From NCBI GenBank assembly GCA_017439305.1, contig JAFSJK010000016.1:1-59806 (forward strand): a stretch of DNA of 59,806 bases, in the 5' to 3' direction. The stretch is from Bacteroidales bacterium. Its GTDB lineage: Bacteria; Bacteroidota; Bacteroidia; Bacteroidales; UBA932. Within the stretch, counting starts at the first letter, position 1, and each line of letters begins with the position of its first letter. The position numbers were made by a program, and so were the translations under genes. The notes beneath the pieces were generated by a model. It was not told the DNA's origin and searched no databases. It saw nothing but the letters and a program-made list of their open reading frames with translations. Shown here in pieces: positions 3,755-44,837 of the stretch.

Positions 3755-4383
3755 TGCGGAAGTATTTGCATATCCTGATGCTCCTTGTCGCGTTACTCGC
3801 GGTTTCCTGCCAGGGACCGCGGGTGATTCCCCGTGACAAGATGGTGGATATCTACTGCGACATGCTGCTTGCCGACCAGCAGATCCGTGACAACAACGTC
3901 CTTCGCAACCGGGCGGACACGATGCTGGTCTACGAGGCGGTGTTCAACCGCTATGGGTACAATACGGACGATTATCTGCATAGTGTCAACCATTATCTGG
4001 GCGATCCGGAACGTTTTGCCAAGATCATGGGGGATGTCGCTGAGAAGTTGCAGTCCGAAGCCGGTGCCTTGGAGAAGGAAATCGGTTATCTGGACTGGAT
4101 GGACCGTTTCCTGGGGATGAAACGCCCTCCGATGGACTCCATCCTCGCCCCTTTCAGCAAGGATTCGCTCTATCTGGGCCTGCCGCGCGTAGTGCGGGAC
4201 TCTTCCCGGTATGCCGGCTGGTTCCGGCTGGTTCCGGCCCAGGAAGATACACTGTCGGTGGTGGATTCCCTGTCCACTCCGTCGGACTCCCTGAAGGCCC
4301 GGCCGGACTCTGTCGCCGCCCCTGCGGACTCCCTGAAGGCAACCCAAGAGCCGTTAAGCGTTGAAGTGAAGGAAAAGAAATGA
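3754..4383 (+). CDS. DUF4296 lipoprotein
   Basis: This 209-residue lipoprotein has a short hydrophobic signal with the lipobox LLAVSC (Cys19). Residues 25-115 form the helical DUF4296 region (PRDKMVDIYCDMLLADQ, then a segment with YGYNTDDY), a Bacteroidota domain of unknown function. The C-terminal 50 residues are low complexity, with repeated DSL units such as PSDSLKA and PADSLKA, probably a disordered periplasmic or surface tail. It overlaps pheT by one base and the next gene by four, so it sits inside a translationally coupled operon. Confidence 0.85.
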   Translation: MRKYLHILMLLVALLAVSCQGPRVIPRDKMVDIYCDMLLADQQIRDNNVLRNRADTMLVYEAVFNRYGYNTDDYLHSVNHYLGDPERFAKIMGDVAEKLQSEAGALEKEIGYLDWMDRFLGMKRPPMDSILAPFSKDSLYLGLPRVVRDSSRYAGWFRLVPAQEDTLSVVDSLSTPSDSLKARPDSVAAPADSLKATQEPLSVEVKEKK

Positions 4384-5561
4384 GAAGGATTGCCGCCAAA
4401 TATGTTTATCCGCTGACTTCTGCCGAGCCCTTGATCAACGGGTTCGTGGAGATGGAAGATGATGGCACCATCATCCGGACGGGTGTGTCCGGGGACCCCT
4501 CAGCAGAGCCTGTCTTCTATGAGGGCGCCCTGGCTCCGGGATTCGTCAATGCCCATTGCCACGTCGAGCTTTCCTATATGAAGGGGCTTTTCCGCAAGGG
4601 GACGGGGATGGCCGGCTTCATCGACCAGATCAATGAACTCCGCGATACCAAGTCCATGGACGAGAAGGTCCGGGATCTCCGGGTGGCGATGGACAGCCTG
4701 TGGGACCAGGGCGTCGTGGCGATGGCCGATATCTCCAACTGTGCCGATTCCTTTGCGGTCAAAGCCTCCCATCCGATGTATACCCGCACCTTCCTGGAAG
4801 TGTTTGGCACCGAACCGGAAGATTGCGATGCCGTGATGGACGGTGTCCGGAAACTGAAGGAGGTTGCCGACGGTTTCGGCATCGATGCCGCCCCTACTCC
4901 GCATGCCTGCTATACGATGAGTCCTCAACTGGTGACGGCCGTGAGCACGGAAGGATTGAAATCCGGCTTCCTGTCTTTCCACAGCGAGGAGACGGAGGAG
5001 GAAGAGGAGATGCTCAAATCGGGTTCCGGCAAGATGTGGGAGAACCGCGTGAAGGCCGGGATGAGCGTTCCGCCCGTTACGGGAAAGTCATCCCTCCTTT
5101 ATTTCATCGACCGCCTGCTGGAAGGCCATCCCGCTCCCTTCGACGAGCATATCCTGCTCGTTCATGAATGCTGCATGGACCAGGAGGGAATCGATGCCGT
5201 GAAAGCCGTGATGCACCATCCGTTCGTGGCGGTTTGTCCGTTATCGAACCTGTTCATCCATAATACGTTGCCCCCGATTGACCTGATGCGTCGGAATGGC
5301 CTCAAGGTGTGCGTGGGCACGGATTCCCTTTCGTCCAACGATGACCTCGTCATCGTGGACGAACTCTATTGCCTCCAGCGGAATTTCCCGGAAGTCCCGC
5401 TGGGAGAACTCCTGACCTGGGCGTCCCGCAACGGGGCCGAGTTCCTCGCGAAGCGTGAGTTCGGTACCCTGGAGGCTGGAAAGCGGCCGGGCCTCGTTCT
5501 GATTGACAACCTGGATGCGGCGGGATGTCTGACCGCAGCCAGCAAATCCAGACGGCTATGA
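4380..5561 (+). CDS. Amidohydrolase family protein (chlorohydrolase/deaminase-like)
   Basis: This 393-residue metal-dependent hydrolase has the amidohydrolase barrel signature: H59-C-H61 after GFVNA, a later FHSEE segment, LVHECC near residue 260 and GTDSLSSND near 317, which supplies the conserved Asp. The family includes aminodeoxyfutalosine deaminase and guanine or cytosine-type deaminases; the substrate cannot be fixed from sequence. The position after DUF4296 recurs in Bacteroidota. The start overlaps the previous stop in ATGA and the stop overlaps the next start likewise. Confidence 0.8.
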   Translation: MRRIAAKYVYPLTSAEPLINGFVEMEDDGTIIRTGVSGDPSAEPVFYEGALAPGFVNAHCHVELSYMKGLFRKGTGMAGFIDQINELRDTKSMDEKVRDLRVAMDSLWDQGVVAMADISNCADSFAVKASHPMYTRTFLEVFGTEPEDCDAVMDGVRKLKEVADGFGIDAAPTPHACYTMSPQLVTAVSTEGLKSGFLSFHSEETEEEEEMLKSGSGKMWENRVKAGMSVPPVTGKSSLLYFIDRLLEGHPAPFDEHILLVHECCMDQEGIDAVKAVMHHPFVAVCPLSNLFIHNTLPPIDLMRRNGLKVCVGTDSLSSNDDLVIVDELYCLQRNFPEVPLGELLTWASRNGAEFLAKREFGTLEAGKRPGLVLIDNLDAAGCLTAASKSRRL

Positions 5562-6307
5562 TGCGCGAAACCACCGTTTTCGGTCCGATCTTTTCGAGAA
5601 GGCTGGGCTCCTCCCTGGGCATCAATCTGCTGCCCCAGGAAGGGAAGCTGTGCAATTTCGACTGCATCTACTGCGAATGCGGTTGGAACCGGGACGGCAA
5701 GGGCGACCGGGCCATCCCCACGGCGGAAGACGTACGGAAGGCCTTGACTGCCAAGCTGGAAGCCTGCCATGCGGCGGGAACGCCCATTGATTCGATTACT
5801 TTCAGCGGCGACGGAGAGCCCACGCTCAATCCCGAGTTCCCTGAAATCATCGACCTGACCCTGGAGCTCCGCGACCGGTATTATCCGGAGGCGAAGGTAT
5901 CGGTCCTTTCCAATGCAACGAAAACCTGGCGTGAAGGCGTTTTCCAGGCCCTTCGGAGGGTGGACAATCCCATCCTCAAACTGGATGCGGCCACGGATGC
6001 GCAGGCGAAACTGGTGAACCAGCCGGTCGGTGCCTACCATGTGGAGGACATCGTCCGCGACCTGGAGCGGTTCGAGGGAAACTTTGTCTTGCAGACGATG
6101 TTCCTGAAAGGGGACGGATTCGCGACGGAAGACTGGGTGGGGGACTGGATGGACATCGTCCGCCGGCTCCGCCCCCGGGAAGTGATGGTCTATACGATCG
6201 ACCGTGAAACCCCGCAGCAGGGGCTTCGGAAATATACGGTGGAGGAGATGCGTGCCCTGGTGCAGCCCCTCCTGGACGAAGGATTCAAGATTCAAATCAA
6301 AGGATAA
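5558..6307 (+). CDS. Radical SAM protein
   Basis: This protein of about 249 residues carries the radical SAM cluster motif CNFDCIYC (CxxxCxxC) about 32 residues from the chosen start, followed by an SGDGEPTLNP segment, the usual SAM-binding glycine region. The opening VFGPIFSRRLG resembles a Bacteroidota and Firmicutes family of small radical SAM enzymes of unknown reaction. An upstream in-frame ATG at 5525 adds 11 residues. I prefer 5558 because it forms a 4-base ATGA overlap with the amidohydrolase and leaves the usual short lead before VFGP. Confidence 0.82.
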   Translation: MMRETTVFGPIFSRRLGSSLGINLLPQEGKLCNFDCIYCECGWNRDGKGDRAIPTAEDVRKALTAKLEACHAAGTPIDSITFSGDGEPTLNPEFPEIIDLTLELRDRYYPEAKVSVLSNATKTWREGVFQALRRVDNPILKLDAATDAQAKLVNQPVGAYHVEDIVRDLERFEGNFVLQTMFLKGDGFATEDWVGDWMDIVRRLRPREVMVYTIDRETPQQGLRKYTVEEMRALVQPLLDEGFKIQIKG

Positions 6308-20181: not shown

Positions 20182-20612
20182 TTCTTGAACAGCCGTTTGT
20201 ACCAGGGACGTTTCTTTTTCTTCCGTTCCTGTTTCAGCCCCGTGACCATCTCATAGATGTCTCCCCATTCAGGAAGGCCTCCCAGGTTGCGGTCGTCGAT
20301 GTATACGTCGGCGATGACCTTCTGGGATTTGTCAGAACGTCCCTGGAACAGGTACCCGGCAGGATGGTTGCTGTTGACGGCGTAGAATTCCAGTCCGCGC
20401 TTGCGGCAGAATTCTACGGCGTCCTCCAGCAGATTTCCGTCCCGGGACGTCCACAGGATCAGGCGATGGCCGTCTGCAGCGAGCGCCTTGAGCGTATCCA
20501 CCGCGAAAGGCTTTTCCTTTCCGATGGCGGGGTACTTGTGCTCTACGATGGTTCCGTCGAAATCGACAGCGATGGTGAGTCCTCTATTTCTTGTCGTCTT
20601 CTCCGTATCCAT
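20178..20612 (-). CDS. HAD-superfamily phosphatase-like protein
   Basis: This protein of about 144 residues carries AVDFDGTIVEHKYP, the HAD motif I with nucleophile Asp17 and Asp19, then ILWTSRDG (motif II) and ADVYIDDRNLGG (motif IV). It resembles the small Bacteroidales HAD protein of the BT_0820 type. The start is uncertain: 20612 overlaps the end of the Wzc gene by 29 bases, in a different frame across the GY-coding repeat, and longer frames run further into the repeat. The basic tail is rich in Lys. It could dephosphorylate a capsule precursor. Confidence 0.78.
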   Translation of the reverse strand: MDTEKTTRNRGLTIAVDFDGTIVEHKYPAIGKEKPFAVDTLKALAADGHRLILWTSRDGNLLEDAVEFCRKRGLEFYAVNSNHPAGYLFQGRSDKSQKVIADVYIDDRNLGGLPEWGDIYEMVTGLKQERKKKKRPWYKRLFKK

Positions 20613-22938
20613 AGCCATATCCATAGCCGTAACCATAGCCGTAACCATAGCCGTATCCGTAGGCACCATAGGCGCGACGGATGACGGAACCGTTCAGGAC
20701 AATGGCCATGCTGTTGAGTTTACCACTTTCGTACAGGCTGTCAAGTTCGGGGAGGATGCGTTTGTCTACCTGGCCGCTGCGGAGGACGAACAGGTTCATG
20801 TCCGTTACACGGTTGATCACGTACGGATCGGCGACAACATTCACCGGCACGGAGTCCAGGATGATGTAATCGTAGATTTGCTTGAGATCGGCGATAAGGT
20901 TGTCAAACCGTTTGCGGCCCAGGAGTTCGGTGGGGTTCGGCGGTACATGGCCGGCGGGGACGAAGTCCACACCCTCGATGATGTTCTCATGAATGATGGT
21001 CTCCAGCGGCATCGTTTCATCATAGAGGTAGTTGGACAGGCCGGTTGCCTTGTGCTTGAGACCGAACTGCTTGGAAATCGTGCGCTTGCGAAGGTCACAG
21101 TCAATCAGGATAACCTTCTTCTGCGCATCTGCAAGGCAGGCGGCGAGGTTCGTGTCGATGAAGGTCTTACCGGCGCTGACGGCGAAGGAAGTTGTCGCGA
21201 TGACGGCGTGGTCGGTACCTTCAGGCTTCATGAACTCGAGGTTCGTCGTCATCAGACGCATCGCTTCCGTGAAGATGCCCTTGGAGTTCGGGTCGTAAAA
21301 GACGCCGTTCTGGATGTCCTTCAATTCCTTCTTCTTGAGTTTCTTGAACGGGACTTCAGCCAGGAACGGGACGGAGACGGTGCTTTCCACATCCTTGCGT
21401 GTCTTCACGCGGGTGTCGATGAACAGCAGGGACAGCAGGATGATCGCGGGGATGGCGAGGCCGACCAGGAAGGCCAGCAGCAGCATCTTGTTGCGGTCGG
21501 GGTAAATCGGGGTGTTGGAAGCCGTGGCCGTATCGATCATACGGGCATTGTTGTCCACCATCGACTGGGCCAGCGCATTTTCCTCACGTTTGTTCAGCAA
21601 GTACAGGTACAGGGATTCCTTGATCTTCTGCTGACGCTCGATGGAGAGCATCTGACGAGCCTTCGCCGGCATCTGCGTGAACTGCTGCATGGACTCCTGC
21701 TCCTTTTCGGCGTAGTCGTCCTTCCGCATGTTCAGGCTGATGACGAGGTTGTCGATGTAGCCCAGGATGTTCTGGCGGATGGTATTCAGGCGGGACTCCA
21801 CTTCCTTGACGGCCGGGCTGTCCACGCTGGACTGCTCCACGAGGCGGGCGCGACGGTTGATCTGCTCGTTGTATTCGGCGATTCGGTTGTCGATTCGCGG
21901 ATCGTCCAGGCCGGTATTCACCGGAATCATGTCGTAGGAGATGAAGGAACTGCTCAGGTAGTCCTTCAGGTACTCTGCAAGGGCGATGCGGGTTTCGATC
22001 TTGATGATCTCGTTGTTGTAGTTCCGACTCTTGGCCAGATACTCATTGGCCGCGCTGCCGATGTTCATCGTACCCTGGGCGCTCTGGTAGCGGGCAAGGT
22101 CGTTCTCCACGTCACCCAGTTCAGCCTGGATGATAAGGAGACGTTCGTTAATGAAGCTCGCCGTATTGATGGCGCTTTGGTTCTTTTCCCGGATGGCATC
22201 CTCGTTGTATTTATCTATCAACGTGTTTAGGATATCCGTCGCTCGCTGGGCATGATAGTCCTGGAGGGACAGCCGCAGGATGGCTCCATTGCCTTGGGAA
22301 ATAACTAGTTTGGCAATGAAGTTGTTCGCCGCGGAAAGGACAGGAACCTTGTTGACGACAATCTCCTTTCCAAAATAGTAAGGGCTATAAGTCGACGTGG
22401 GTTTGAATACCAGCTGGTGGTTGTCGATGGTGACCGTGTCGCCGAGAGTCACCGTCTGAGCGACCCCGCCCTTTTCCAATTTGATGGTGGAATTGTCCAC
22501 CGGAATCACCTTGGCCGTGAAGGAGTTGAAAGATTCGTCTTCGCGCGGAAAGAACATCCGGACCGGGGTCTTGCGGTACAGTTCCACGTCACGGAGCCGT
22601 TCACGGTAGGAATAGTTGACATCCGCGTCCAGCGTTTTCACAACCTCGGACATCAGTCCCTTGGAACGGAGCTGGAGAATCTCCAAGGTCATGTTCACCC
22701 GGTTGGCCAGGTTGCTGTAGGTGTTCAGGCCGGTGGCAAAATGCTGGCTCTTGGGGTCTTTGATGATAACCGTGGCGTTGGCCTTGTAAACGAACGGCAT
22801 CTGGGTATACTTGTAATACGCGTACCCAACGGCGATACCGGCACACAGAAGGAACAGGTACCAGTGCCTCAGGAGATACAGGAGGATGTCAATCAGATTG
22901 ACTTGATTGCCTGGATTATTTGAATTCTTGGAGCTCAT
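20584..22938 (-). CDS. wzc: Capsule chain-length regulator and tyrosine autokinase (Wzc)
   Basis: This 784-residue inner-membrane BY-kinase has an N-terminal Wzz domain with TM1 near residue 25, a long periplasmic coiled-coil region, TM2 near 485, and a cytoplasmic kinase with Walker A-like SAGKT, Walker A' VILIDCDLRK and Walker B YIILDSVPV. The C-terminus is an extreme tyrosine tail: ten consecutive Tyr-Gly pairs before EDDKK, the presumed autophosphorylation cluster. With Wza it controls polymer length and export. The gene lies 11 bases after wza. Confidence 0.95.
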   Translation of the reverse strand: MSSKNSNNPGNQVNLIDILLYLLRHWYLFLLCAGIAVGYAYYKYTQMPFVYKANATVIIKDPKSQHFATGLNTYSNLANRVNMTLEILQLRSKGLMSEVVKTLDADVNYSYRERLRDVELYRKTPVRMFFPREDESFNSFTAKVIPVDNSTIKLEKGGVAQTVTLGDTVTIDNHQLVFKPTSTYSPYYFGKEIVVNKVPVLSAANNFIAKLVISQGNGAILRLSLQDYHAQRATDILNTLIDKYNEDAIREKNQSAINTASFINERLLIIQAELGDVENDLARYQSAQGTMNIGSAANEYLAKSRNYNNEIIKIETRIALAEYLKDYLSSSFISYDMIPVNTGLDDPRIDNRIAEYNEQINRRARLVEQSSVDSPAVKEVESRLNTIRQNILGYIDNLVISLNMRKDDYAEKEQESMQQFTQMPAKARQMLSIERQQKIKESLYLYLLNKREENALAQSMVDNNARMIDTATASNTPIYPDRNKMLLLAFLVGLAIPAIILLSLLFIDTRVKTRKDVESTVSVPFLAEVPFKKLKKKELKDIQNGVFYDPNSKGIFTEAMRLMTTNLEFMKPEGTDHAVIATTSFAVSAGKTFIDTNLAACLADAQKKVILIDCDLRKRTISKQFGLKHKATGLSNYLYDETMPLETIIHENIIEGVDFVPAGHVPPNPTELLGRKRFDNLIADLKQIYDYIILDSVPVNVVADPYVINRVTDMNLFVLRSGQVDKRILPELDSLYESGKLNSMAIVLNGSVIRRAYGAYGYGYGYGYGYGYGYGYGYGEDDKK
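20602..20661 (-). repeat. Hexanucleotide-type repeat coding for (Tyr-Gly)10 in Wzc
   Basis: Sixty bases made of ten 6-base Tyr-Gly units with synonymous variation (TAT or TAC with GGC, GGT or GGA). The first bases of the HAD gene overlap it in another frame, where the repeat reads as Met-Ala/Val-Thr units. Gain or loss of units keeps Wzc in frame. Confidence 0.9.
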
Positions 22939-22949
22939 ATCAAACGTAC

Positions 22950-23711
22950 TTATTTACTACCCATTCGAGTCCAAACCAAAATGTTTGCACCGATATTGAT
23001 GAAACTCATAATCATCGTAATGGATTGACGAATCGCTGTACCCGTCTGGGAACGTTGCCAACGAGCCGGTTTTACATAAACGATGTCGTTCTGCTGCAAA
23101 TAGAAAACAGGAGAATCGAACATCTCGATGGTCTGGAAGTCTACGCTGTAAGCCTTCCGGACTCCATTTTCCGTCCGGATTACTTCCACTTCCTTGATTT
23201 TCTCACCTTGGGTAGGTGCGACGAGTTGGAGCAAATTGATGCTCCGACCCGATACGTTGACCCGATCGGTATTGCCATATTTGACCACGGTAACCGTGAA
23301 ATTCTGCAGATTCACGCTCACAACCGGTTCCCGGATATAACCTGAGTTGATAATCCTGTTGGAGATATTCGTCTGTACTTCTTTCAGGGTCATTCCTTCC
23401 ACGTGAATCGTACCGAGAACCGGGAAATCGATGTTTCCCTCGGCATCCACGACATAACTGGCTTCGCTGGTAGTTCCAACACCGTCCTGGATAAGAGCAC
23501 CGACATTGAAAGGCGTAGCCAAAGCCGGGTCACTGCTATAGACACGAATACTCAGACGGTCCATCTGCTGGACCCGGAGTTCCGGCGCAGGTTTGGCCGG
23601 ATACTCTTTCCCATACTCCATGTCCTTGATGTAAGTAATCTGTGACGGAGTCACGCAAGCACTGACCGAAAGGACAAGCGCGATGAGAGACCATTTAATT
23701 GTGCGTTTCAT
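22950..23711 (-). CDS. wza: Polysaccharide export outer-membrane lipoprotein (Wza)
   Basis: This 253-residue lipoprotein has lipobox VLSVSAC (Cys19). The polysaccharide export domain (QQMDRLSIRVYSSDP, YVVDAEGNIDFPVLG) is followed by an SLBB region and a C-terminal hydrophobic helix. Wza-type proteins form the outer-membrane channel for capsule and work with Wzc, the next gene. Its start overlaps the upstream glycosyltransferase by 17 bases. Confidence 0.93.
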   Translation of the reverse strand: MKRTIKWSLIALVLSVSACVTPSQITYIKDMEYGKEYPAKPAPELRVQQMDRLSIRVYSSDPALATPFNVGALIQDGVGTTSEASYVVDAEGNIDFPVLGTIHVEGMTLKEVQTNISNRIINSGYIREPVVSVNLQNFTVTVVKYGNTDRVNVSGRSINLLQLVAPTQGEKIKEVEVIRTENGVRKAYSVDFQTIEMFDSPVFYLQQNDIVYVKPARWQRSQTGTAIRQSITMIMSFINIGANILVWTRMGSK

Positions 23712-31271: not shown

Positions 31272-32099
31272 TTACTTCCAATACAAAGTGGCATGCCCGT
31301 GTTTGGGCTGACGCTGCTCTTCGGGCGGAAGCTGCATATAGTCTCCGTAGATGTTCCGGAGGACGCGGTCATAGCCTTTCATGATTTTGAAAGAGCGTCC
31401 TTCGAATTCCGTGTCGATGGTCTCGTCGAAATCTTCGCAGAGCTGGTAATTCCGGATGCCGTCATCCAGGATACACAGCTGTGACCAATGCTCCGTATTC
31501 CCGTAAGGAATCCGGACGGCGTTGTTTCGCACGACCGCGTTATTGGCGTCCAGTTTCTTCCTTCCCTGGCCGGAAAGCTTGATCGCCATCAGGATGAGGA
31601 AATCCTTGATGCCGCATGTCCGGAGAATGTCGCGGAACGAAGCCAGCGAGTACCGGTAGCGGAGTTGCATCATCCAGTTCTTCTTGACCTCGCCGATGTT
31701 CCGGACGAATTCTTCCTTGTCGTCGGAAACGCCGTCGGCCGGGAAAACGTCGATCCACATACCTCCCTGATAGTTTTTCCCGATTGGGAGAAACGTGGAG
31801 CTTCCGGTCTTGACCGTGTCGAACACCCGGCAGTAGTTCAGGTAGTAATCCGGGTCCTTCTCGCAAACGAGACCGAGTCCCGGTGCCGAGAACGAGGCGA
31901 CGAACCGTTCGTAGTCCGGCCGTGGCATGATAATGTCCACGTCGTCGTCCCAAGGTATGAATCCCTTGTGCCGGATGGCACCGATTAAAGTCCCGTAGGC
32001 GAGGGAATACTTGATCCCGTTGGCGATGCAGTGGTCGTGGACGGCTTGAAGGATTTCCAGCGACTGCGCCTGGATTTCCCGGAGAGTGAGTTCTTTCAT
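31272..32099 (-). CDS. LicD family phosphotransferase (copy 1)
   Basis: This 275-residue protein has the LicD motif YSLAYGTLIGAIRHKGFIPW followed by DDDVD (51-55) and PRPDYERF. LicD proteins transfer phosphorylcholine, glycerol-phosphate or ribitol-phosphate groups from CDP-activated donors to glycans. It is one of three paralogues in this operon, and two cytidylyltransferases that could supply donors are also present. ATGA overlap with the upstream lipoprotein gene. Confidence 0.92.
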   Translation of the reverse strand: MKELTLREIQAQSLEILQAVHDHCIANGIKYSLAYGTLIGAIRHKGFIPWDDDVDIIMPRPDYERFVASFSAPGLGLVCEKDPDYYLNYCRVFDTVKTGSSTFLPIGKNYQGGMWIDVFPADGVSDDKEEFVRNIGEVKKNWMMQLRYRYSLASFRDILRTCGIKDFLILMAIKLSGQGRKKLDANNAVVRNNAVRIPYGNTEHWSQLCILDDGIRNYQLCEDFDETIDTEFEGRSFKIMKGYDRVLRNIYGDYMQLPPEEQRQPKHGHATLYWK

Positions 32100-33893: not shown

Positions 33894-34496
33894 CTACTGG
33901 TGTTTGGGAAGGAAACGGGCGAGGACGGAATTCTTTATCCGAACCTTCAGCGCTTTGAAATGATACTCGAGCCGGCATTTGGAATCCGGATAGGGACAGC
34001 CGTCCAGCCATTTGACCAGGGCCACATTGAAATGGTCCCTGTAGAACTGCAGGTCGACGTATTTGTATCCCGCCTTGATTGCGTTTTGGATGATATGCCG
34101 GTTCTTTTCGTGGGTGTCAAAGTACATTTTGTCAATTCCCATCTCCCTGGCCAGTTCTTCCTGCCTGGCACAAAGCGCTTTGTAAATTCCTTGACCGTTG
34201 TAGGCGGGAAGGACGGAAGCGAAACAGCAATAGGCATATGTATACTTGCCGAACCAGGTTCGGATGGCTTTCGGGAAAAAGGCCGCAGTACCTACAAGCC
34301 GGTCGTCCTCCGTCAGAGCGACCAGCATGATTCCTTCCGGACCGATCTTTTTTCGGATTTCGTCGCCGGGCAGGGAAGGATAACGCATGAAGATACCCTT
34401 CTTGCGGTTCTCCGCATGGGAATCCCAGATGACCTGGTGAATCTCGTCCCATGAAATCCAGTCCGGCTTTTCGATGATTCTGATGGAAGAGGCCAT
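33894..34496 (-). CDS. GNAT-fold acetyltransferase-like protein
   Basis: This 200-residue protein shows the GNAT core: a strand with MLVALTEDDRLVGTAAFFP, then FASVLPAYNGQGIYKALCARQEELAR, where YNGQGIY fits the acetyl-CoA loop (Q/R-x-x-G-x-G/A), and a later strand MYFDTHEKN. It may N-acetylate an amino sugar or amino acid, or act as an aminoacyl-transfer GNAT; its position beside two ATP-grasp genes makes the second possibility worth noting. Confidence 0.78.
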   Translation of the reverse strand: MASSIRIIEKPDWISWDEIHQVIWDSHAENRKKGIFMRYPSLPGDEIRKKIGPEGIMLVALTEDDRLVGTAAFFPKAIRTWFGKYTYAYCCFASVLPAYNGQGIYKALCARQEELAREMGIDKMYFDTHEKNRHIIQNAIKAGYKYVDLQFYRDHFNVALVKWLDGCPYPDSKCRLEYHFKALKVRIKNSVLARFLPKHQ

Positions 34497-36834: not shown

Positions 36835-37728
36835 CTACTGTTTCTTGGATTTCAGGATCTTGGCTCCGATATGCCTTGACAAGGCAACGGCCGCCTCATT
36901 GCTGGAAGGAAGCAGCATGTCATAGACCAGGTCCCGGATGGAAACGAGGTCTCCGGCCGATAGATTGTCGCCCGATCCGCCGATGATGTCCGAGGGAACG
37001 ATCCTGACCATCTCATCCTCGTCGGAGATATAGTCATAAGCTGTCACCAGGGCCATTAATTTGGTCAGGGAAGCCGGAATTCCTGTCTCATCCGGGGACT
37101 TTGACACCAACAGTTCAGGGATGCCGCTGTCGCAAGGAAGTTTGCAAACTGCCAGCCGCGGGGTTTCCACGGTCAGTTCCACTGGCTGTCCCTGCAGGAA
37201 AGAGTCCAAATAATCAACCAGTTTCCGGGCGTCCCGCCATCGGCTTTCATCGGTCGGTCCGCCCATCAGAACGCAGGCCAGTCTGACACCGTTCACGGAA
37301 GTTATCCAGGCGAGATTGTAGTTGACGTGACCAGGGGCTGTAATCGTGCCCGTCTTGCCGCCCAGGATCGGATACTTCGAAATCCCGGATTGTGCGCCGA
37401 AGACGGTTGAGGCGATGGACACTGTCCTGGCCCGTTGGCCCTGGACGGAGATTTCGTACCGGTCTTTTCCCCATTTCTCCGCGATTTGGGGAATCTGCAA
37501 AGCATGGATAAGGATTTGGATGAAATCCCTGGGAGATGCGGCGGAGCCCCGCCACTTCAGTCCGGATGCATCAGGAAAACAGGCGCTGGATGCTCCGATG
37601 GATGCGGCTTTCCGGTTCATCTCGGCGACGAACACATCCTTGTATCCTCGCTTTCGGGACCTATAGTCAGTAATCAAAGCGGGGAGATCCTTCCATCCAT
37701 AGCGGCGTATGTAATCCAGGACTTTCAT
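36835..37728 (-). CDS. Circularly permuted S11 D,D-peptidase homologue
   Basis: This 297-residue protein carries all three penicillin-binding motifs of D-Ala-D-Ala carboxypeptidases, but in the wrong order. It starts with the mid-domain segment FVAEMNRKAASIG...FPDASGL (33-57), continues to GGKTGT (Lys125-Thr-Gly), then GIPASLTKLM (Ser220-x-x-Lys223) and LLPSSNEAAVALSRHIG (Ser275-x-Asn277). In PBP5-type enzymes the order is SxxK, SxN, KTG. The break lies between RHIG and FVAEMN, which are adjacent in ordinary S11 proteins. No signal peptide is visible, also atypical. Its start directly abuts the stop of the MurF-like gene. Confidence 0.85.
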   Translation of the reverse strand: MKVLDYIRRYGWKDLPALITDYRSRKRGYKDVFVAEMNRKAASIGASSACFPDASGLKWRGSAASPRDFIQILIHALQIPQIAEKWGKDRYEISVQGQRARTVSIASTVFGAQSGISKYPILGGKTGTITAPGHVNYNLAWITSVNGVRLACVLMGGPTDESRWRDARKLVDYLDSFLQGQPVELTVETPRLAVCKLPCDSGIPELLVSKSPDETGIPASLTKLMALVTAYDYISDEDEMVRIVPSDIIGGSGDNLSAGDLVSIRDLVYDMLLPSSNEAAVALSRHIGAKILKSKKQ

Positions 37729-39249
37729 CTACGGGATCAGCATCTGGAGTTTCCAATGGCGCTTCATCCGCCTTTCTTCCCGGTCTTTTTCTTCAAACAT
37801 ACGGGGCCAGAGTTTCTTGATGCACTGGTCCAGATGCCCGGAGTGACTGGCCTTGAACAGGTACAGATTGCCTTGGGACAGGGAGGGTTTCAACGTTCGG
37901 ACAATCTCGTCAATGGAATCCGGATAAGAAACGGCAAGGTCCTGTCGGAACGGGAAATCCTTGGCTGCTGCGTGGAATTGGTCTCCAATCAGGAGCAGCC
38001 GGTCGATGTTGGCTTGGTTGACATCCTTCAGGATGGACAGGTGTTCGGCGGCTGCCTCATCGCCCAGTTCCTGGACATCTCCGAGAATGGCGATCCGCTT
38101 GGCGTTTTCTGCAATAGGAATGGCCGAAGCTGCGTCCAGTGCGGAGCGGATGGAACGCCCGACGGCATTGAAGCAGTCCGCATAGATGGTATCCCCTTCC
38201 TGGCTCTTGTACACGTTGTTCCTGAACCCGGTTGTCTTGTATTTTCCCAGGCCGCATGCGATGGTTTGCGGTGAGAGACCGGCGTGACGGCCGGCGGCAT
38301 AGGCATACAGGGAGTTCAGCACGTTATGACGGGCAAAAATGTTTTTGAGATGGACGGGAACGGCCGATCCACCATCAACGATGGTATAATGCAGACCGTC
38401 TTCCCTGACCTCGATGTCCCGGGCATAATAGTCGGCGGAGTCGTCCGATTCTGAAACGAAGACGATTTTTTTCCCTTCCAGCCGGTCCAAGGCGTTGAAT
38501 GCATTCTTGTGGACGACGACGATGCCGTCTTCCGCCAGGGAATCGGCCAGGTTGCAGACCTCGTCGAAAATGGTGTCCATGCTGCCCAGCCGACCGATAT
38601 GGGAACGGTCCAACTCCGTGATGATGACGACGTTGGGTTTCATCATCAGGGAGATGGTCTTTGTCGTTCCGGGGACGGATTCCGCCACTTCCTGGACCCA
38701 CTGGTCGATACGCTTGGAGAGATGCTGGACGGAAAAGCCGACAATATGCGGTTCGTTTTCGTTCAGCGGCTCCGTCAGCGTCCGGAATTGTTCCCGGTAA
38801 ACGGTTGAAATCATGTTCTTGACAGAGGTCTTCCCGATACTGCCGGTGACGGCCGTGACGCCGATGTCCGGGAACAGCTCCCTGTACTTCGCGCACATCT
38901 TTCCGTAGGTGAGCAAAGGGTCCGGGACGACGATGCAAGGAATCCCGATATCAAATTTCTCTTTGACGACGCAGGCAAAGGCGCCGAGCCTTTTGGCCTG
39001 TTTCATATATTCCAGTTTCTCCCGGTATAAACCGAAGGCCAGGCAATCAGGTACCATCCTTTTCTTGATGAAGGATACCAGCTTGACCGGGTGGTCCAGA
39101 AGGGCAAGGACATCCGGTTCCAAAGAGGCTTCCGGGATCTCCGCCGCTTCCAGCAGGTCCCTCAGCTTGATTGAACCTTGCCGTCGGTATCGGATGGAAT
39201 CAAGGCATTTGAAAAACAAGTTGCGAAAGAAAAAGCGTAAGTCTTCCAT
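37729..39249 (-). CDS. MurF-like Mur ligase family protein
   Basis: This 506-residue ATP-dependent amide ligase has a P-loop TGSIGKTS (135-142), a MurF-like ASHLG/fGS equivalent in RSHIGRLGSMD (216-225), the ribose and substrate region DCFNAVGRSIRSAL (358-371), corresponding to MurF DSYNANPDSM, and LGDVQELG (389-396) as in MurF LGDMLELG. The N-terminal domain is divergent, so the substrate is probably not the usual UDP-MurNAc-tripeptide. The location between the flippase and the permuted peptidase points to a special role in polymer or peptide synthesis. The basic tail is KDREERRMKRHWK. Confidence 0.85.
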   Translation of the reverse strand: MEDLRFFFRNLFFKCLDSIRYRRQGSIKLRDLLEAAEIPEASLEPDVLALLDHPVKLVSFIKKRMVPDCLAFGLYREKLEYMKQAKRLGAFACVVKEKFDIGIPCIVVPDPLLTYGKMCAKYRELFPDIGVTAVTGSIGKTSVKNMISTVYREQFRTLTEPLNENEPHIVGFSVQHLSKRIDQWVQEVAESVPGTTKTISLMMKPNVVIITELDRSHIGRLGSMDTIFDEVCNLADSLAEDGIVVVHKNAFNALDRLEGKKIVFVSESDDSADYYARDIEVREDGLHYTIVDGGSAVPVHLKNIFARHNVLNSLYAYAAGRHAGLSPQTIACGLGKYKTTGFRNNVYKSQEGDTIYADCFNAVGRSIRSALDAASAIPIAENAKRIAILGDVQELGDEAAAEHLSILKDVNQANIDRLLLIGDQFHAAAKDFPFRQDLAVSYPDSIDEIVRTLKPSLSQGNLYLFKASHSGHLDQCIKKLWPRMFEEKDREERRMKRHWKLQMLIP

Positions 39250-39276: not shown

Positions 39277-40824
39277 TCAGGACTTTCTGACATTCTTGAT
39301 CGCTTTATTGAACATGGACAAGAGTCTTTCCCGTTCGGATGGCGTGCAACCCAGGAAAAAGGAACAGGCTCCGGCGGAAACGATGCAGGCAGGCACGACT
39401 ACAAGGAATCTGCCCCAGCCTTCCTGCATATTGAAATAGAGGATCAGCGGGATGATGACGGATGCGACGGCGGCAAGGATGGACGGGCACATCACGGAAA
39501 AGACAAATTCCCGGACGGAAATCTTGAGTTGATACTTGCTCAGGAACATCATGATGACAACCTTGATGCAGGCAAGGATGATGGCACAGGTATACGTCCA
39601 TTCCGGAACGAAACCGCGGTGTAGAAGAACGTAGACCACCCCGAAAAGAACAAACTCCAGCGTGCTGAAAATGAGTTGGTACCACATGATGTTCCCTGTA
39701 GACCGGATGCCCATAGCAAGCACGACATGGAAAGTATTGATTGTATTCAGGATCAAGGTGAGCCTGATGAAGTTAACCGTGTGTTCGGGAACCTCCTCCA
39801 GCCAGATGTCCGTGACGAAGTTGGCTTCCAGGAGAAGGGGAAAAACGATAATCCACATGATGAAGAAAGTGAATTTCGTTCCCCTGAAAAGCAGTTGCTT
39901 CATATAGTCGTGGTCCCCGGATGCATAAGACTGGGTTACCTGCGGGTTGATGGCCATCGTGAAATTGTTCACGAAGATGGACACGGCATGATTGACCGTG
40001 TTGGACAGGTGCCTTGCTGCATTCACGGCGGGTCCGTAGACGACGTTCACGACCATGTTCACGCCTTGTCCGGAGAAAGTCCCGGACGTCTTCCCCAGAA
40101 AGTTCCATCCGGCATAGGAGAATAGTTCCCAGAATTTCCGGGTATTCCAGTACCACCTGATCCGGCATTCCTCGAAATGCTTCATGGCATAGACCCTGGA
40201 GATCATCTGTTTCGTGAGCGTGACGCTCAGGAGCAGCGCTGCGTACAGGATCAGTTTGTCCGTATCTCCAAGAGAGAATGTGATCAGCAGTGCGATGAAG
40301 AATTTCAGCACGACTTCACCTACGTCGATGTAAGCGAAGACGCCCATTTTCTCGTGGGCGATGATGGAAGCCGTGAAGGAAACGACGAGGAAACTGGATA
40401 CCGAAGACAGGACAGAGAACTGAAAGCACCAGAAGGCGGCGTTCAACCGGCCTGGCGGAATGGTCATTTTGTTGAACAGGAACCACAGACCGAAGGTCTC
40501 CGTCAGGACGACGACAATGATGGAAAGGATGACCATGATGTTCAGTGACATGGCAAACGTATTGCTCAGTTCTTCCTTGTCACCTTTTCCCATCGCGAAA
40601 TTCAGGAACCGGCTGATAGCACCGTTCAGCGAACTGGCCACGATGGAAAACATGGACACGAAACTGCCTACGACTCCATATACGCCATAGTCGTCCACCC
40701 CCAATCCCTTCAGCACTAGCCTGCTTGTGTACAGGGAAATGAACAGGCTCAGCAGGGAACGCAGGTAAAGCAAGACCGTGTTCTTGGCGATCCTCTTGGT
40801 CTTCGTATGAACGGTTTCAGGCAT
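39277..40824 (-). CDS. wzx: Flippase of the Wzx/MATE-like polysaccharide transporter family
   Basis: This 515-residue protein with about twelve to fourteen membrane helices opens RIAKNTVLLYLRSLLSLFISLYTSRLVLKGLGVDDYGVYG, the usual Wzx start. Conserved polar positions follow in TM2 and TM7. It would flip the undecaprenyl-linked repeat unit to the periplasm for polymerisation. It starts 3 bases before the LicD gene's stop. Confidence 0.92.
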   Translation of the reverse strand: MPETVHTKTKRIAKNTVLLYLRSLLSLFISLYTSRLVLKGLGVDDYGVYGVVGSFVSMFSIVASSLNGAISRFLNFAMGKGDKEELSNTFAMSLNIMVILSIIVVVLTETFGLWFLFNKMTIPPGRLNAAFWCFQFSVLSSVSSFLVVSFTASIIAHEKMGVFAYIDVGEVVLKFFIALLITFSLGDTDKLILYAALLLSVTLTKQMISRVYAMKHFEECRIRWYWNTRKFWELFSYAGWNFLGKTSGTFSGQGVNMVVNVVYGPAVNAARHLSNTVNHAVSIFVNNFTMAINPQVTQSYASGDHDYMKQLLFRGTKFTFFIMWIIVFPLLLEANFVTDIWLEEVPEHTVNFIRLTLILNTINTFHVVLAMGIRSTGNIMWYQLIFSTLEFVLFGVVYVLLHRGFVPEWTYTCAIILACIKVVIMMFLSKYQLKISVREFVFSVMCPSILAAVASVIIPLILYFNMQEGWGRFLVVVPACIVSAGACSFFLGCTPSERERLLSMFNKAIKNVRKS

Positions 40825-40827
40825 GGA

Positions 40828-41628
40828 TTATTTCCAAAACGCCTTGCTCTCGTGCACCGAATACCGCTTCTCCGGCGGCGGCGGTGTCATGTAGTTCGGC
40901 CCGAAAGTCTCTGTGAGCGCTTTGTCGGAATCCGCCGGGCATCGGAACTGCCGGTCCTCGAAAGGCATCAAAGTGAAGGGCTCCAGGGCCTCTTTCGGGA
41001 CGAAAACCCGATACTTCCAGTCAACCAGGGAGGACGCATAGGCGCAGGAATCGTAGTCGTTAGATGCGATATACTTGTCCTCGGCCTGCAGGATCTTCTG
41101 CAGGGACACGAACGGATGCACGATCTTTCCCAGCAGTGCCATGCAGCTCTTCTTGAAGCCGGTCTTGCGCCCGATCTTGAACTTGCGGGTGAACCGCTGG
41201 TTCGCGGCCATGGACCGGTAGAAGGCGACCTTCTTCATCATCTTGACGCCTTCTTCCGGAGAGTGGATGCCGTCCAGGAGGAAGATGTCCACGAATACGC
41301 CCCAGTTGCCGTCACCGCCGTCTTCCTGGACGACGGTCCGGATGTCGTGGACCTTCGGGAAGTCGAGGGGATAATCCTTGTCGGTCCAAGCCGACAGGAC
41401 CTTGTAGTACGGATGGTCGTATTCCCGGCAGAAGCGCTCGTAGTCCGGACGGGGCATCCAGATGTCGATATCGTCGTCCCAGGGAATGAATCCCTTGTGC
41501 CGGACGGCGCCGAGCAGTGAACCGTATGCCAGATAATACCGCAGTCCCTTCTCTTCACAGAAGCGCTGCATGTCCTCCAGGATGTCCATCATGTGGACAC
41601 GGAATTCGGCGGGGGATATCTCTTTCAT
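40828..41628 (-). CDS. LicD family phosphotransferase (copy 2)
   Basis: This protein of about 266 residues has YYLAYGSLLGAVRHKGFIPW, then DDDID (51-55) and MPRPDYERF. The start at 41628 (MKEISPAEF) gives an ATGA overlap with the GT8 gene; the longer frame runs inside that gene. The sequence differs considerably from the other two copies beyond the motif, suggesting a different acceptor or donor rather than simple duplication. Confidence 0.92.
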   Translation of the reverse strand: MKEISPAEFRVHMMDILEDMQRFCEEKGLRYYLAYGSLLGAVRHKGFIPWDDDIDIWMPRPDYERFCREYDHPYYKVLSAWTDKDYPLDFPKVHDIRTVVQEDGGDGNWGVFVDIFLLDGIHSPEEGVKMMKKVAFYRSMAANQRFTRKFKIGRKTGFKKSCMALLGKIVHPFVSLQKILQAEDKYIASNDYDSCAYASSLVDWKYRVFVPKEALEPFTLMPFEDRQFRCPADSDKALTETFGPNYMTPPPPEKRYSVHESKAFWK

Positions 41629-42557
41629 TTCTTGAATTTTTTCTTGTCGATGGGGTACCGGAGCACCATCTTGATCCGCTTCATCAGCGGAAGCCGCTCC
41701 AGCATCGTCATCTGGGAATCCCAGAACTGCTGGCAGAAGGCCTCGTCGAAGAACGGGCTCCGGCGGTATGCGGTCCACCAGATGTCCATGTTCATACAGG
41801 CGCCCTTCCAGGGCTTTGTGCCATTATAGTGTACAATGCCATGGTCAAGGGCATCATCCAAGGCTTCAGCCCCATAGATGGCCTCCATGTCGGCGCGCCG
41901 GTTGACGATGAGCCCGTATAGCTGGACCGTCATGCAGAATACCGGCCCGAGGGGCAGGAACCGCTTGTTGCAGGCGATGTTGATGATGTCCATGTCCTGC
42001 TGGTTGTAGTTGTTCTTCCCGAGCTCCCGGAATCTGTCGATCATCCCGTCGCGGCGGATCAGCGCCGAATTGATGACGAGGTTGCCGGAATAATAGTAGT
42101 TGTCCTTCCAGTCGATCCCGAGTCCGGCGATGTACTCCCGCATGGACGGCCGCAGCCGGGAACAGTTGTCCACGCCTGCGAAATAGTTCTCGCCAAGGTC
42201 CAGGTCATAATACTTGGACAAATCTTCCCGGATGATTACGTCCACGTCCGAATAGAGCAGCTTGTCGTATTCGGGGATGATCTCGGGGGAGAGGAGGCGG
42301 TAGTAGGCCGTCTCGGGAATGCCCCGGATCTCGTACGCGCCCACGAATTCGCCCGAAATCTCCCGGATGGTCAGACGGAAGTTGGAGAAACGTTCCTTGA
42401 GCACATTCAGGGACGAGAAATCGCATCCGGGTCCGTGCAGGATGAAGATGTCATAGAACGTTTCCGGCTCCGCGCTTTCCAGCAGGGAGGTCAGGCAGAC
42501 CCCCGCGGGCATCACGAGGCTCTGGTCGAAGGTAAAGAGGATGGGGACGGTCTTCAC
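41625..42557 (-). CDS. Glycosyltransferase family 8
   Basis: This 310-residue retaining GT-A enzyme has ILFTFDQSLVMPAGVCLTSLL, then YDKLLYSDVDVII with the D-x-D metal motif and YYYSGNLVINSALIRR. GT8 capsule enzymes typically add glucose or galactose. It starts at GTG in a GTGA overlap with the upstream gene. Confidence 0.92.
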   Translation of the reverse strand: MKTVPILFTFDQSLVMPAGVCLTSLLESAEPETFYDIFILHGPGCDFSSLNVLKERFSNFRLTIREISGEFVGAYEIRGIPETAYYRLLSPEIIPEYDKLLYSDVDVIIREDLSKYYDLDLGENYFAGVDNCSRLRPSMREYIAGLGIDWKDNYYYSGNLVINSALIRRDGMIDRFRELGKNNYNQQDMDIINIACNKRFLPLGPVFCMTVQLYGLIVNRRADMEAIYGAEALDDALDHGIVHYNGTKPWKGACMNMDIWWTAYRRSPFFDEAFCQQFWDSQMTMLERLPLMKRIKMVLRYPIDKKKFKK

Positions 42558-43614: not shown

Positions 43615-44421
43615 CTATATTTCAATAAAGGAATCATAGGCGTGGTGGGAGACCCGTTTCTCCTCCGGGGGAAGCTGCATATAGTTCCCGTAGAGCTGGG
43701 TCAGGTAGATGTCGAAGTACTTCAGGGCCGGATACTCCCGTCCTTCGAAGGGGAGGGCTCCGATTTCATCATACACTTCCCTGGCGAAGAAAGTCCGCGT
43801 CTGCTCGGCGGCAAAATAGACCCCCACGGTTTCAGACCCGTCATAAGGAAGAGCCTTCTGTCCCTCGACAAGTTTCTTTTTCAAGGACTTGAAGGAACCG
43901 GGATGGAAATAGCGGAGCCGCTTCAGGATGTATTTGAGCATCAGCGGGAAACGTCCCGCGTGGACCGACTTGTAATAGGGACAGATCTGGAAGAGTTTCT
44001 CCCGGATCCGGTTCAGGGAAGCATAGTGCGCTTCCAACCCTTCTGAAGGAGCGCCGTCCACAGGGAAAACATCCACGTTCACGCCCCACAGTTCCCGGCC
44101 GAAGTTCTTGTCGACCATCACGGTTCCCTCCTTGCACACCTTTACAAAGGTCTCGACGCAGTCGTCCCTTTCTGCCAGGTCTACCAGGTAGAGCCCTTCG
44201 GCGCGGAACTCCTTCCGGAGACGGTCGTAATCAGGCCGCGGCATCATCAGGTCGATGTCGTCGTCCCAAGGGATGAATCCCTGGTGCCGGACGGCGCCGA
44301 TGAGAGTCCCGTAGGCGAGGGAATAGCGGAGGCCGTGTTCCTGGCAGAACCGGTCAATCCCGTCCAGGATTTCCAGCTGGATGCGCTTGCATCCGTCCAT
44401 GTCCAGCAGCCGGCGTCCCAT
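43615..44421 (-). CDS. LicD family phosphotransferase (copy 3)
   Basis: This protein of about 268 residues has YSLAYGTLIGAVRHQGFIPW followed by DDDID and PRPDYDRL. The start at 44421 shares one base with the stop of the TagD-like gene (TGATG), so synthesis of a CDP-activated donor and its transferase may be coupled. Met8 is an alternative start. Its end lies 8 bases before the FemAB-like gene. Confidence 0.92.
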   Translation of the reverse strand: MGRRLLDMDGCKRIQLEILDGIDRFCQEHGLRYSLAYGTLIGAVRHQGFIPWDDDIDLMMPRPDYDRLRKEFRAEGLYLVDLAERDDCVETFVKVCKEGTVMVDKNFGRELWGVNVDVFPVDGAPSEGLEAHYASLNRIREKLFQICPYYKSVHAGRFPLMLKYILKRLRYFHPGSFKSLKKKLVEGQKALPYDGSETVGVYFAAEQTRTFFAREVYDEIGALPFEGREYPALKYFDIYLTQLYGNYMQLPPEEKRVSHHAYDSFIEI

Positions 44422-44837
44422 CACTTCGTCTTTGAATATTCCCGCAGAAGGGTGGAGGAAATGCCCTCGGTCCGTGGTAACCGGACCACCTCTTTTCCGT
44501 TCTTCCGGCACCATTCGATGGCACGTTGGAAACCGGCGTGGTTCTGGTCTTGTCCCAGGACGAGGACGTCGAATTCAAAATTCCGGATATCCGTATCCAC
44601 GTCGCGGTAGAGAGCGACCTCGTCGACATACCGGATGGTGCTGACCATGTACAGCCGCTCTTCAGTGGTGTAGATCACCCGCGTGTCCGGCTTGTACTTG
44701 AGGATTACTTCGCCGTCCTGGACCGCTGCAATGAGCTTGTCGCCATATTCCTTCGCCCGCTTGAAGAGCAGGATATGGCCGATGTGCAGCATGTCGTAGA
44801 CGCCGAAGGTGAGGACGGTTTTGCCTTGATTTGTCAT
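44421..44837 (-). CDS. TagD-like cytidylyltransferase
   Basis: This 138-residue nucleotidyltransferase has HIGH (18-21) and RTEGISST (122-129), the two signatures of glycerol-3-phosphate cytidylyltransferase. It resembles the N-terminal domain of the fusion at 17801-19135. It would make CDP-glycerol or a related CDP-alcohol for the LicD protein encoded directly after it. Confidence 0.93.
   Translation of the reverse strand: MTNQGKTVLTFGVYDMLHIGHILLFKRAKEYGDKLIAAVQDGEVILKYKPDTRVIYTTEERLYMVSTIRYVDEVALYRDVDTDIRNFEFDVLVLGQDQNHAGFQRAIEWCRKNGKEVVRLPRTEGISSTLLREYSKTK

Follow-up and report, generated by a model that had tools for sequence, protein, structure and literature searches.

A natural circularly permuted S11 D,D-peptidase in a capsule operon of a Bacteroidales bacterium, with permuted relatives in phages and plasmids

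The window analyzed here, that is, the whole stretch of 59,806 nucleotides of contig JAFSJK010000016.1 from a Bacteroidales bacterium (assembly GCA_017439305.1), carries in a capsule locus a gene for a D,D-peptidase of the S11 family whose chain order is swapped. It is close to certain that this gene encodes a natural circularly permuted enzyme of the penicillin-binding/beta-lactamase fold, which is S11 by homology and not by chain order. Beyond what an earlier sequence-only reading of this DNA had described, the analysis supports the conclusion that the permuted enzyme occurs mostly as a domain of phage proteins, one copy of which has been captured by the capsule operon. The whole account, in which a phage-derived permuted S11 peptidase would act in the cytoplasm on the D-Ala-type end of a capsule precursor, is given a probability of about 0.6.

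The three catalytic motifs of the window protein were all intact and were found in the order KTG-SxxK-SxN, instead of the S11 order SxxK-SxN-KTG. The positions reported for them in the sequence-only reading (KTG at 125, SxxK at 220 and SxN at 275) proved exact. In Pfam, the profile PF00768 matched the protein with 61 bits (cut-off 27.6), not co-linearly but in two separate stretches, the best of which paired residues 206–288 with profile positions 25–116. The other part of the protein was covered by PRK10001 of NCBIfam (residues 27–174, profile positions 145–281). When the solved enzyme 4k91 was aligned by phmmer, query residues 198–288 fell on chain positions 19–114 and query residues 28–73 on positions 115–159, and this swapped alignment is the signature of a chain that has been cut and rejoined. 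Additionally, hidden Markov models (HMMs) for the KTG half and the SxxK half were built from the permuted family itself, and each half was detected once in the window protein, with the KTG half leading. The swapped matches and the single copy of each half bear out the earlier claim that the chain was cut and rejoined, not shuffled.

An AlphaFold model of the window protein (predicted local distance difference test, pLDDT, of 87) aligned to S11 enzymes over one segment and also, across the new joint, with two laboratory-made beta-lactamase fusions or permutants. Since the model aligns across the joint with these constructs, the halves of the protein seem to be arranged as in the parent fold. 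It had been proposed to test in a predicted structure whether Ser220, Lys223, Ser275 and Lys125 meet in one pocket; what the model shows on this point is its alignment across the joint.

The protein has 29 residues ahead of the domain and seven after the SxxK half, which ends at residue 290 of 297. As had been noted, no stretch resembling a signal peptide was visible in residues 1–45, where the maximum hydropathy over 12 residues was 0.22, compared with 3.2 in a lipoprotein-like gene nearby. The cytoplasmic location suggested in the sequence-only reading is consistent with this absence, which is the one observation behind it. No C-terminal anchor domain was found, and Pfam detected S11 and Beta-lactamase2 only in this protein, with no C-terminal lipocalin-like domain. 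Against the PHROGs database, a peptidase PHROG was the sole match; neither a tail family nor an N-terminal virion-attachment module was found.

A search of plasmids and phages returned one-piece matches over 87–89% of the window protein in Staphylococcus elements, namely five plasmids and two phages, whose records annotate these copies merely as serine hydrolase. Three of the five plasmids were taken for locus examination (examined loci are numbered with the prefix L), and viral contigs and bacterial genomes were added by scans with a growing alignment. The scan of genome contigs relied on one peptide pattern, so the permuted family is under-sampled; it gave 13 loci, of which six were clearly permuted, six were ordinary and one was a fragment with a single half (L054). 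Among the listed viral matches (85 loci, L091–L175), 13 reading frames were permuted and 72 ordinary, and the permuted form was present in at least 13 different viral contigs after duplicates were removed and three earlier contigs were included. Matches to the window protein were also found in 81 of the 395 genomes of the phylum sample, its own genome included, and the 29 loci examined there (L005–L033) all had the ordinary order. One bacterial family (f136) accounts for 79 of these 81 genomes. The order sample (393 genomes, again including its own) gave one other match, of ordinary order, and the other 60 relatives of the window genome gave no match to the window peptidase.

The examined set comprised 22 permuted frames, from 13 viral contigs, Staphylococcus phages, plasmids and chromosomes, Bacillus contigs and the window; near-identical frames are included in it, as is one truncated by a contig end. 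All three motifs were kept in 21 of the 22. One permuted relative, L105 (5923–6981), lacks KTG and retains SxxK and SxN. SxxK and SxN were 55 residues apart in 17 frames; in four frames the spacing was 54 and in a single frame 53. The linker that joins the halves measured 16–32 residues in 19 frames and 41, 54 and 195 residues in the other three, and the window linker of 23 residues falls within the range of the family. The linker of 195 residues, in a viral protein (L062, 5509–7314), had a weak match to the carbohydrate-binding family CBM_4_9 (20.4 bits, cut-off 25.9), which would fit with a joint located at the surface. The ratio of nonsynonymous to synonymous substitutions (dN/dS, Nei-Gojobori) was 0.07 to 0.14 in four close pairs, indicating purifying selection; four more distant pairs were saturated or gave no value. 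The conservation of the motifs together with purifying selection argues for an active acyl-serine enzyme.

The permuted domain of phages was found in longer proteins, where it came last. Twelve of these proteins were scanned against PHROGs, which gave tail families in the N-terminal parts of four (L045, L061, L037 of the Staphylococcus phages and, taken as a whole, the gene of L004) and no tail match in L062, L063, L094, L097, L104 and L105. BppU_N and collagen were recognized in L045 by Pfam. For the remaining two of the 12, a tail gene lies directly upstream of the permuted gene in L046 and a tail gene for a tape measure protein lies two upstream in L047. These results support a permuted family made up mainly of phage proteins, several of which are tail proteins.

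The closest homologue of the window gene, and its sole close relative among viral contigs, was 57% identical and was carried by the 168-kb contig IMGVR_UViG_3300021255_000060 (L004). A gene about 3 kb from the permuted gene of this contig had gut phage matches, including crAss-like and Bacteroides phages, at 33–43% (best eight of 32), and by these matches the phage is related to the crAss-like group. The permuted gene itself (3891–5813, the same as L044 4891–6813) contains two internal TGA codons and would encode a protein of 640 residues if TGA is read as tryptophan (code 4). The neighboring genes are likewise longer with TGA as tryptophan, several of them being unbroken under code 4 alone, and we infer that this phage is recoded in that way. 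Read-through by code 15 was also considered for this tail gene and was ruled out, as both internal stops are TGA.

The place of the cut was compared with ordinary S11 enzymes. In 35 of their loci, the conserved Phe in the following helix lay 17 residues from the SxN asparagine; in two loci this distance was 14. This control is narrow, with 29 of the 35 loci from one bacterial family and with L063, L064 and L136 left out as artefacts of the regular expression. In five loci of ordinary order, this distance was 28–32 residues: L065, L096, L107, L089 (a virion structural protein of Erythrobacter phage ZS04) and L084 (a plasmid gene). The nearest ordinary-order relatives, mostly from viral contigs, have a loop that is 11–15 residues longer precisely at the cut site of the permuted forms. 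A wider control was the gap between the half-HMM matches. For the 72 ordinary viral rows among the listed matches, it was 5–8 residues in 67, 14–18 in four (L096, L107 and, both from the L065 contig again, L095 and L106) and 24 in a partial match (L116). A gap of 14 was found in an Enterococcus plasmid gene (L088).

Trees were built on chosen subsets of loci, the first with 57 rows (one skipped, six duplicates dropped), the second with 39 (three skipped for short coverage) and the third with 41 (one skipped). In the tree of 41 sequences, the five longer-loop sequences formed one group (88.5/78). Most ordinary enzymes were set apart, by a branch supported at 99.5/97, from the permuted and longer-loop sequences and two Lachnospiraceae sequences. 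The probable ancestors of the permuted form are phage S11 enzymes of ordinary order in which the longer loop was present at the cut before permutation. The chain may also have been permuted more than once at one place, in the lineage of the window gene and its phage relative and separately in other phages. The best trees lack a clade of all permuted forms and place the window/L004 pair beside ordinary longer-loop relatives, not with the other permuted ones (SH-aLRT, the approximate likelihood-ratio test, 90.5 and 56.2; ultrafast bootstrap, UFBoot, 77 and 66). Tree support is modest, however, and a single permuted clade was not rejected by the approximately unbiased (AU) test (0.37 with 39 rows and 0.25 with 41). 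In addition, all 22 frames end 2–12 residues past the SxxK half, which puts the cut at one and the same place throughout. Repeated permutation is regarded as rather unlikely, although it is the strongest of the alternatives weighed here.

Stand-alone copies were found on Staphylococcus plasmids (L034–L036), on S. simulans chromosomes (L050, L051), in S. borealis (L052, truncated by the contig end) and in the window. In the Staphylococcus copies whose start is present, it lies 0–14 residues ahead of the domain, so there is no room for a signal peptide. The Staphylococcus and window groups took separate places in the trees. A phage origin of the permuted enzyme in bacteria is likely, and bacteria have probably captured it at least twice, once in Staphylococcus and once in the capsule operon of the window.

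The capture in the window could also be recent, so that the gene, active or idling, would be carried along in the operon with no settled role in the capsule. Such an event would agree with the finding that, among 61 relatives and the 393 genomes of the order, the permuted order was present in the window genome alone, and with a nearest homologue that is a phage protein with tail-family matches. By contrast, the gene is separated from its flanking genes by gaps of just zero and one nucleotide, and its motifs are all retained at only 57% identity to the phage copy, so that divergence has not been accompanied by visible decay. A recent arrival without a settled role is rated as rather improbable, slightly below repeated permutation.

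The positions of the gene, of its parts and of the surrounding genes are collected in Table 1.

Table 1. The permuted peptidase gene and its surroundings, in window positions.
Feature	Position	Strand	Remarks
Permuted S11-type acyl-serine D,D-peptidase	36835..37728	minus	297 aa; ATG at 37728, stop ends at 36835
KTG half, residues 30–175	37204..37641	minus	Second half in usual S11 enzymes, first here
KTG motif, K125-T126-G127	37348..37356	minus	
New joint, linker residues 176–198 (23)	37135..37203	minus	Ties ancestral C-terminus to ancestral N-terminus
SxxK/SxN half, residues 199–290	36859..37134	minus	First half in usual S11 enzymes, last here
SxxK motif, S220-L-T-K223	37060..37071	minus	
SxN motif, S275-S-N277	36898..36906	minus	
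MurF-like ligase, 506 aa	37729..39249	minus	TIGR01143 1e-64, 219 bits, under family cut-off of 288.6
ATP-grasp-like protein 1, 372 aa	35715..36833	minus	1 nucleotide past peptidase stop; weak PRK06849 / PRK12767
ATP-grasp ligase 2, 408 aa	34502..35728	minus	PF02222 8e-9, Dala_Dala_lig_C 1e-6; 14-nucleotide overlap with preceding gene
GNAT acetyltransferase, same gene run	33894..34496	minus	PF00583 1e-9
Capsule export genes: chain-length regulator (GNVR/AAA_31) and Poly_export protein	20584..23711	minus	
Flippase-like and LicD family proteins	39277..41778	minus	Directly upstream of MurF-like gene; MatE 25.5 bits (cut-off 24.9), LicD 7e-43

The TAG of the MurF-like gene abuts the ATG of the peptidase in the same frame, with no nucleotide between them (37726–37731). 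The earlier description of a MurF-like ligase and two ATP-grasp ligases as neighbors holds for the positions and for the MurF-like match; the first ATP-grasp-like protein gave a weak match (best NCBIfam 1e-6) and no Pfam ATP-grasp match. The capsule setting described there was confirmed by the export, flippase-like and LicD genes, and the locus also contains a membrane acyltransferase. Three LicD-type genes are present in the window (31272–32099, 40828–41778 and 43615–44514), along with a gene similar to glycerol-3-phosphate cytidylyltransferases at 44421–44837, and these suggest that the capsule could be phosphate-containing and teichoic-acid-like.

It had been proposed to look for homologues with the same motif order and the same neighbors. 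The permuted order was indeed found in plasmid, phage, genome and metagenome records, but the cassette of MurF-like ligase, peptidase and ATP-grasp genes was not found in other genomes. A relative of ATP-grasp-like protein 1 (30%) was present in one other of the 393 order genomes (E up to 1e-10), within a capsule-type locus that gave no peptidase match. Matches to the Mur ligase, in the 57 other relatives having one, were at most 29% identical.

MurF adds D-Ala-D-Ala, and ends of this kind are cut by S11 enzymes between the two D-Ala residues. A MurF-like gene (best match TIGR01143) also lies beside a stand-alone permuted copy in one lineage of Staphylococcus plasmids, and this case, together with the tight packing of the MurF-like and peptidase genes in the window, suggests that the substrate may be a D-Ala-type end formed within the cytoplasm. 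The ATP-grasp ligase would supply the MurF-like ligase, which would attach a dipeptide resembling D-Ala-D-Ala to a carboxylate of the capsule precursor. The permuted peptidase, presumably remaining in the cytoplasm, would then remove the terminal D-Ala through an acyl-enzyme at Ser220, and the acyl group would be hydrolyzed or transferred ahead of export. Several features of the Staphylococcus loci weigh against this proposal: the pairing of the two genes is known from one lineage, in which they converge, one of three records has a ligase without the P-loop region, and no Mur ligase was seen in half of the six examined loci. The Mur ligase frame without this region is that of plasmid L036 (10019–11749), whereas the relatives of L035 and L052 have it. 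Because of these weaknesses, the specific capsule role of the permuted peptidase is judged less likely than not and is the more doubtful part of the account. In a broader scenario, the permutation would have occurred in phage tail proteins via the extended loop, reversing the tip enzyme on its stalk, and bacteria would have captured it at least twice as a stand-alone cytoplasmic acyl-serine enzyme, whose partners in the processing of surface-polymer precursors would be MurF-like ligases. This scenario is given somewhat less than even odds.

The same genes might instead form a bypass of the Van type, where precursors of peptidoglycan, and not of the capsule, would be remodelled by an alternative D-Ala-D-X ligase together with MurF and a D,D-carboxypeptidase. 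The best NCBIfam match of the window protein was VanY-D (3e-15, 56 bits, with a family cut-off of 625), and ATP-grasp ligase 2 had a weak match to the C-terminus of D-Ala-D-Ala ligases. The similarity was limited to these two weak matches, no search having been aimed at other Van genes. The gene run, however, is embedded among capsule genes, and the genome holds a separate MurF-type gene elsewhere, which makes such a bypass improbable.

Slightly less probable still is a role of the stand-alone copies in host defence, as intracellular tail domains that block or titrate the phage tail enzyme or its target. They are indeed kin of phage tail domains and are located on plasmids and chromosomes. Against such a role, PADLOC gave no family match for the six proteins submitted, the motifs are intact, close pairs are under purifying selection and the window copy sits in a packed biosynthetic operon. 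Finally, although the contig belongs to a draft genome whose contamination is estimated at 3.18%, an assembly chimera (which the sequence-only reading had listed among the outcomes that would refute it) or a chance order of the motifs was ruled out by the identical order in independent homologues from named plasmid and phage records plus many contigs and by a GTPase gene of the contig (which we take, by eye, to be TypA-like) that is 83–95% identical to 11 of the 12 same-genus genomes searched.

Regarding the literature, no natural permuted S11 enzyme, penicillin-binding protein (PBP) or beta-lactamase was found in the accessible part of the sources searched, mostly outside subscription journals, and to that extent the earlier statement that no such permutation had been described stands. 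To our knowledge, the permuted penicillin-binding/beta-lactamase fold is known just from laboratory constructs, and a permutant of this fold was reportedly made in the laboratory by Pieper et al. in 1997. The permutation treated in the available part of one paper concerns a different fold, the lipocone (PMC12419801), and the word hydrolase is absent from the accessible portion of the text on phage UHP46 (PMC11861072).

Few folds in microbiology have been studied as much as the penicillin-binding/beta-lactamase fold, and a conserved natural permutant offers nature's own test case for the way in which proteins become circularly permuted, with ordinary-order phage relatives whose longer loop at the cut resembles the state before permutation. 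These results also point to a class of phage tail enzymes for which serine hydrolase is the only annotation on record, as well as to a domain of phages turned bacterial operon gene. If the stand-alone forms do bind beta-lactams in the cytoplasm, they would represent a new kind of penicillin-binding protein.

Compared with known S11 enzymes (PBP5/DacA, the Streptomyces K15 DD-transpeptidase and the PBP7-type endopeptidases), the window protein has the catalytic motifs in common, matches the family profile above its cut-off and is alike over a segment of the modelled fold, but it differs in its swapped order and in that neither a signal peptide nor a C-terminal anchor domain was seen. The PBP-type thioesterases SurE and PenA, as far as the available part of the source shows, are a precedent for PBP-named enzymes acting in biosynthesis (PMC11735501); they differ by a lipocalin-like domain and a setting in nonribosomal peptide synthesis, neither of which was seen for the window protein. 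The ordinary-order phage S11 enzymes (L065, L096, L107 and the ZS04 protein) share with the permuted forms the phage setting, high half-HMM scores and features after SxN, whereas they are unpermuted and have their 28–32 residues from SxN to the next conserved helix at the cut of the permuted forms. In the tail fibre proteins of the BppU type and those containing collagen, the permuted domain comes last (L045 and L061), while the window protein has only its short N-terminal stretch before the domain and matches no tail family. The permuted versions of the same superfamily fold that come closest are 1alq (S. aureus PC1) and RG13 (an MBP/TEM-1 fusion), the latter of which we take to be a permuted protein; these are the two constructs with which the model aligned over the joint. 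Both are class A beta-lactamases made in the laboratory, whereas the enzyme described here is a natural one, belongs to S11 and is cut after the helix that bears SxN.
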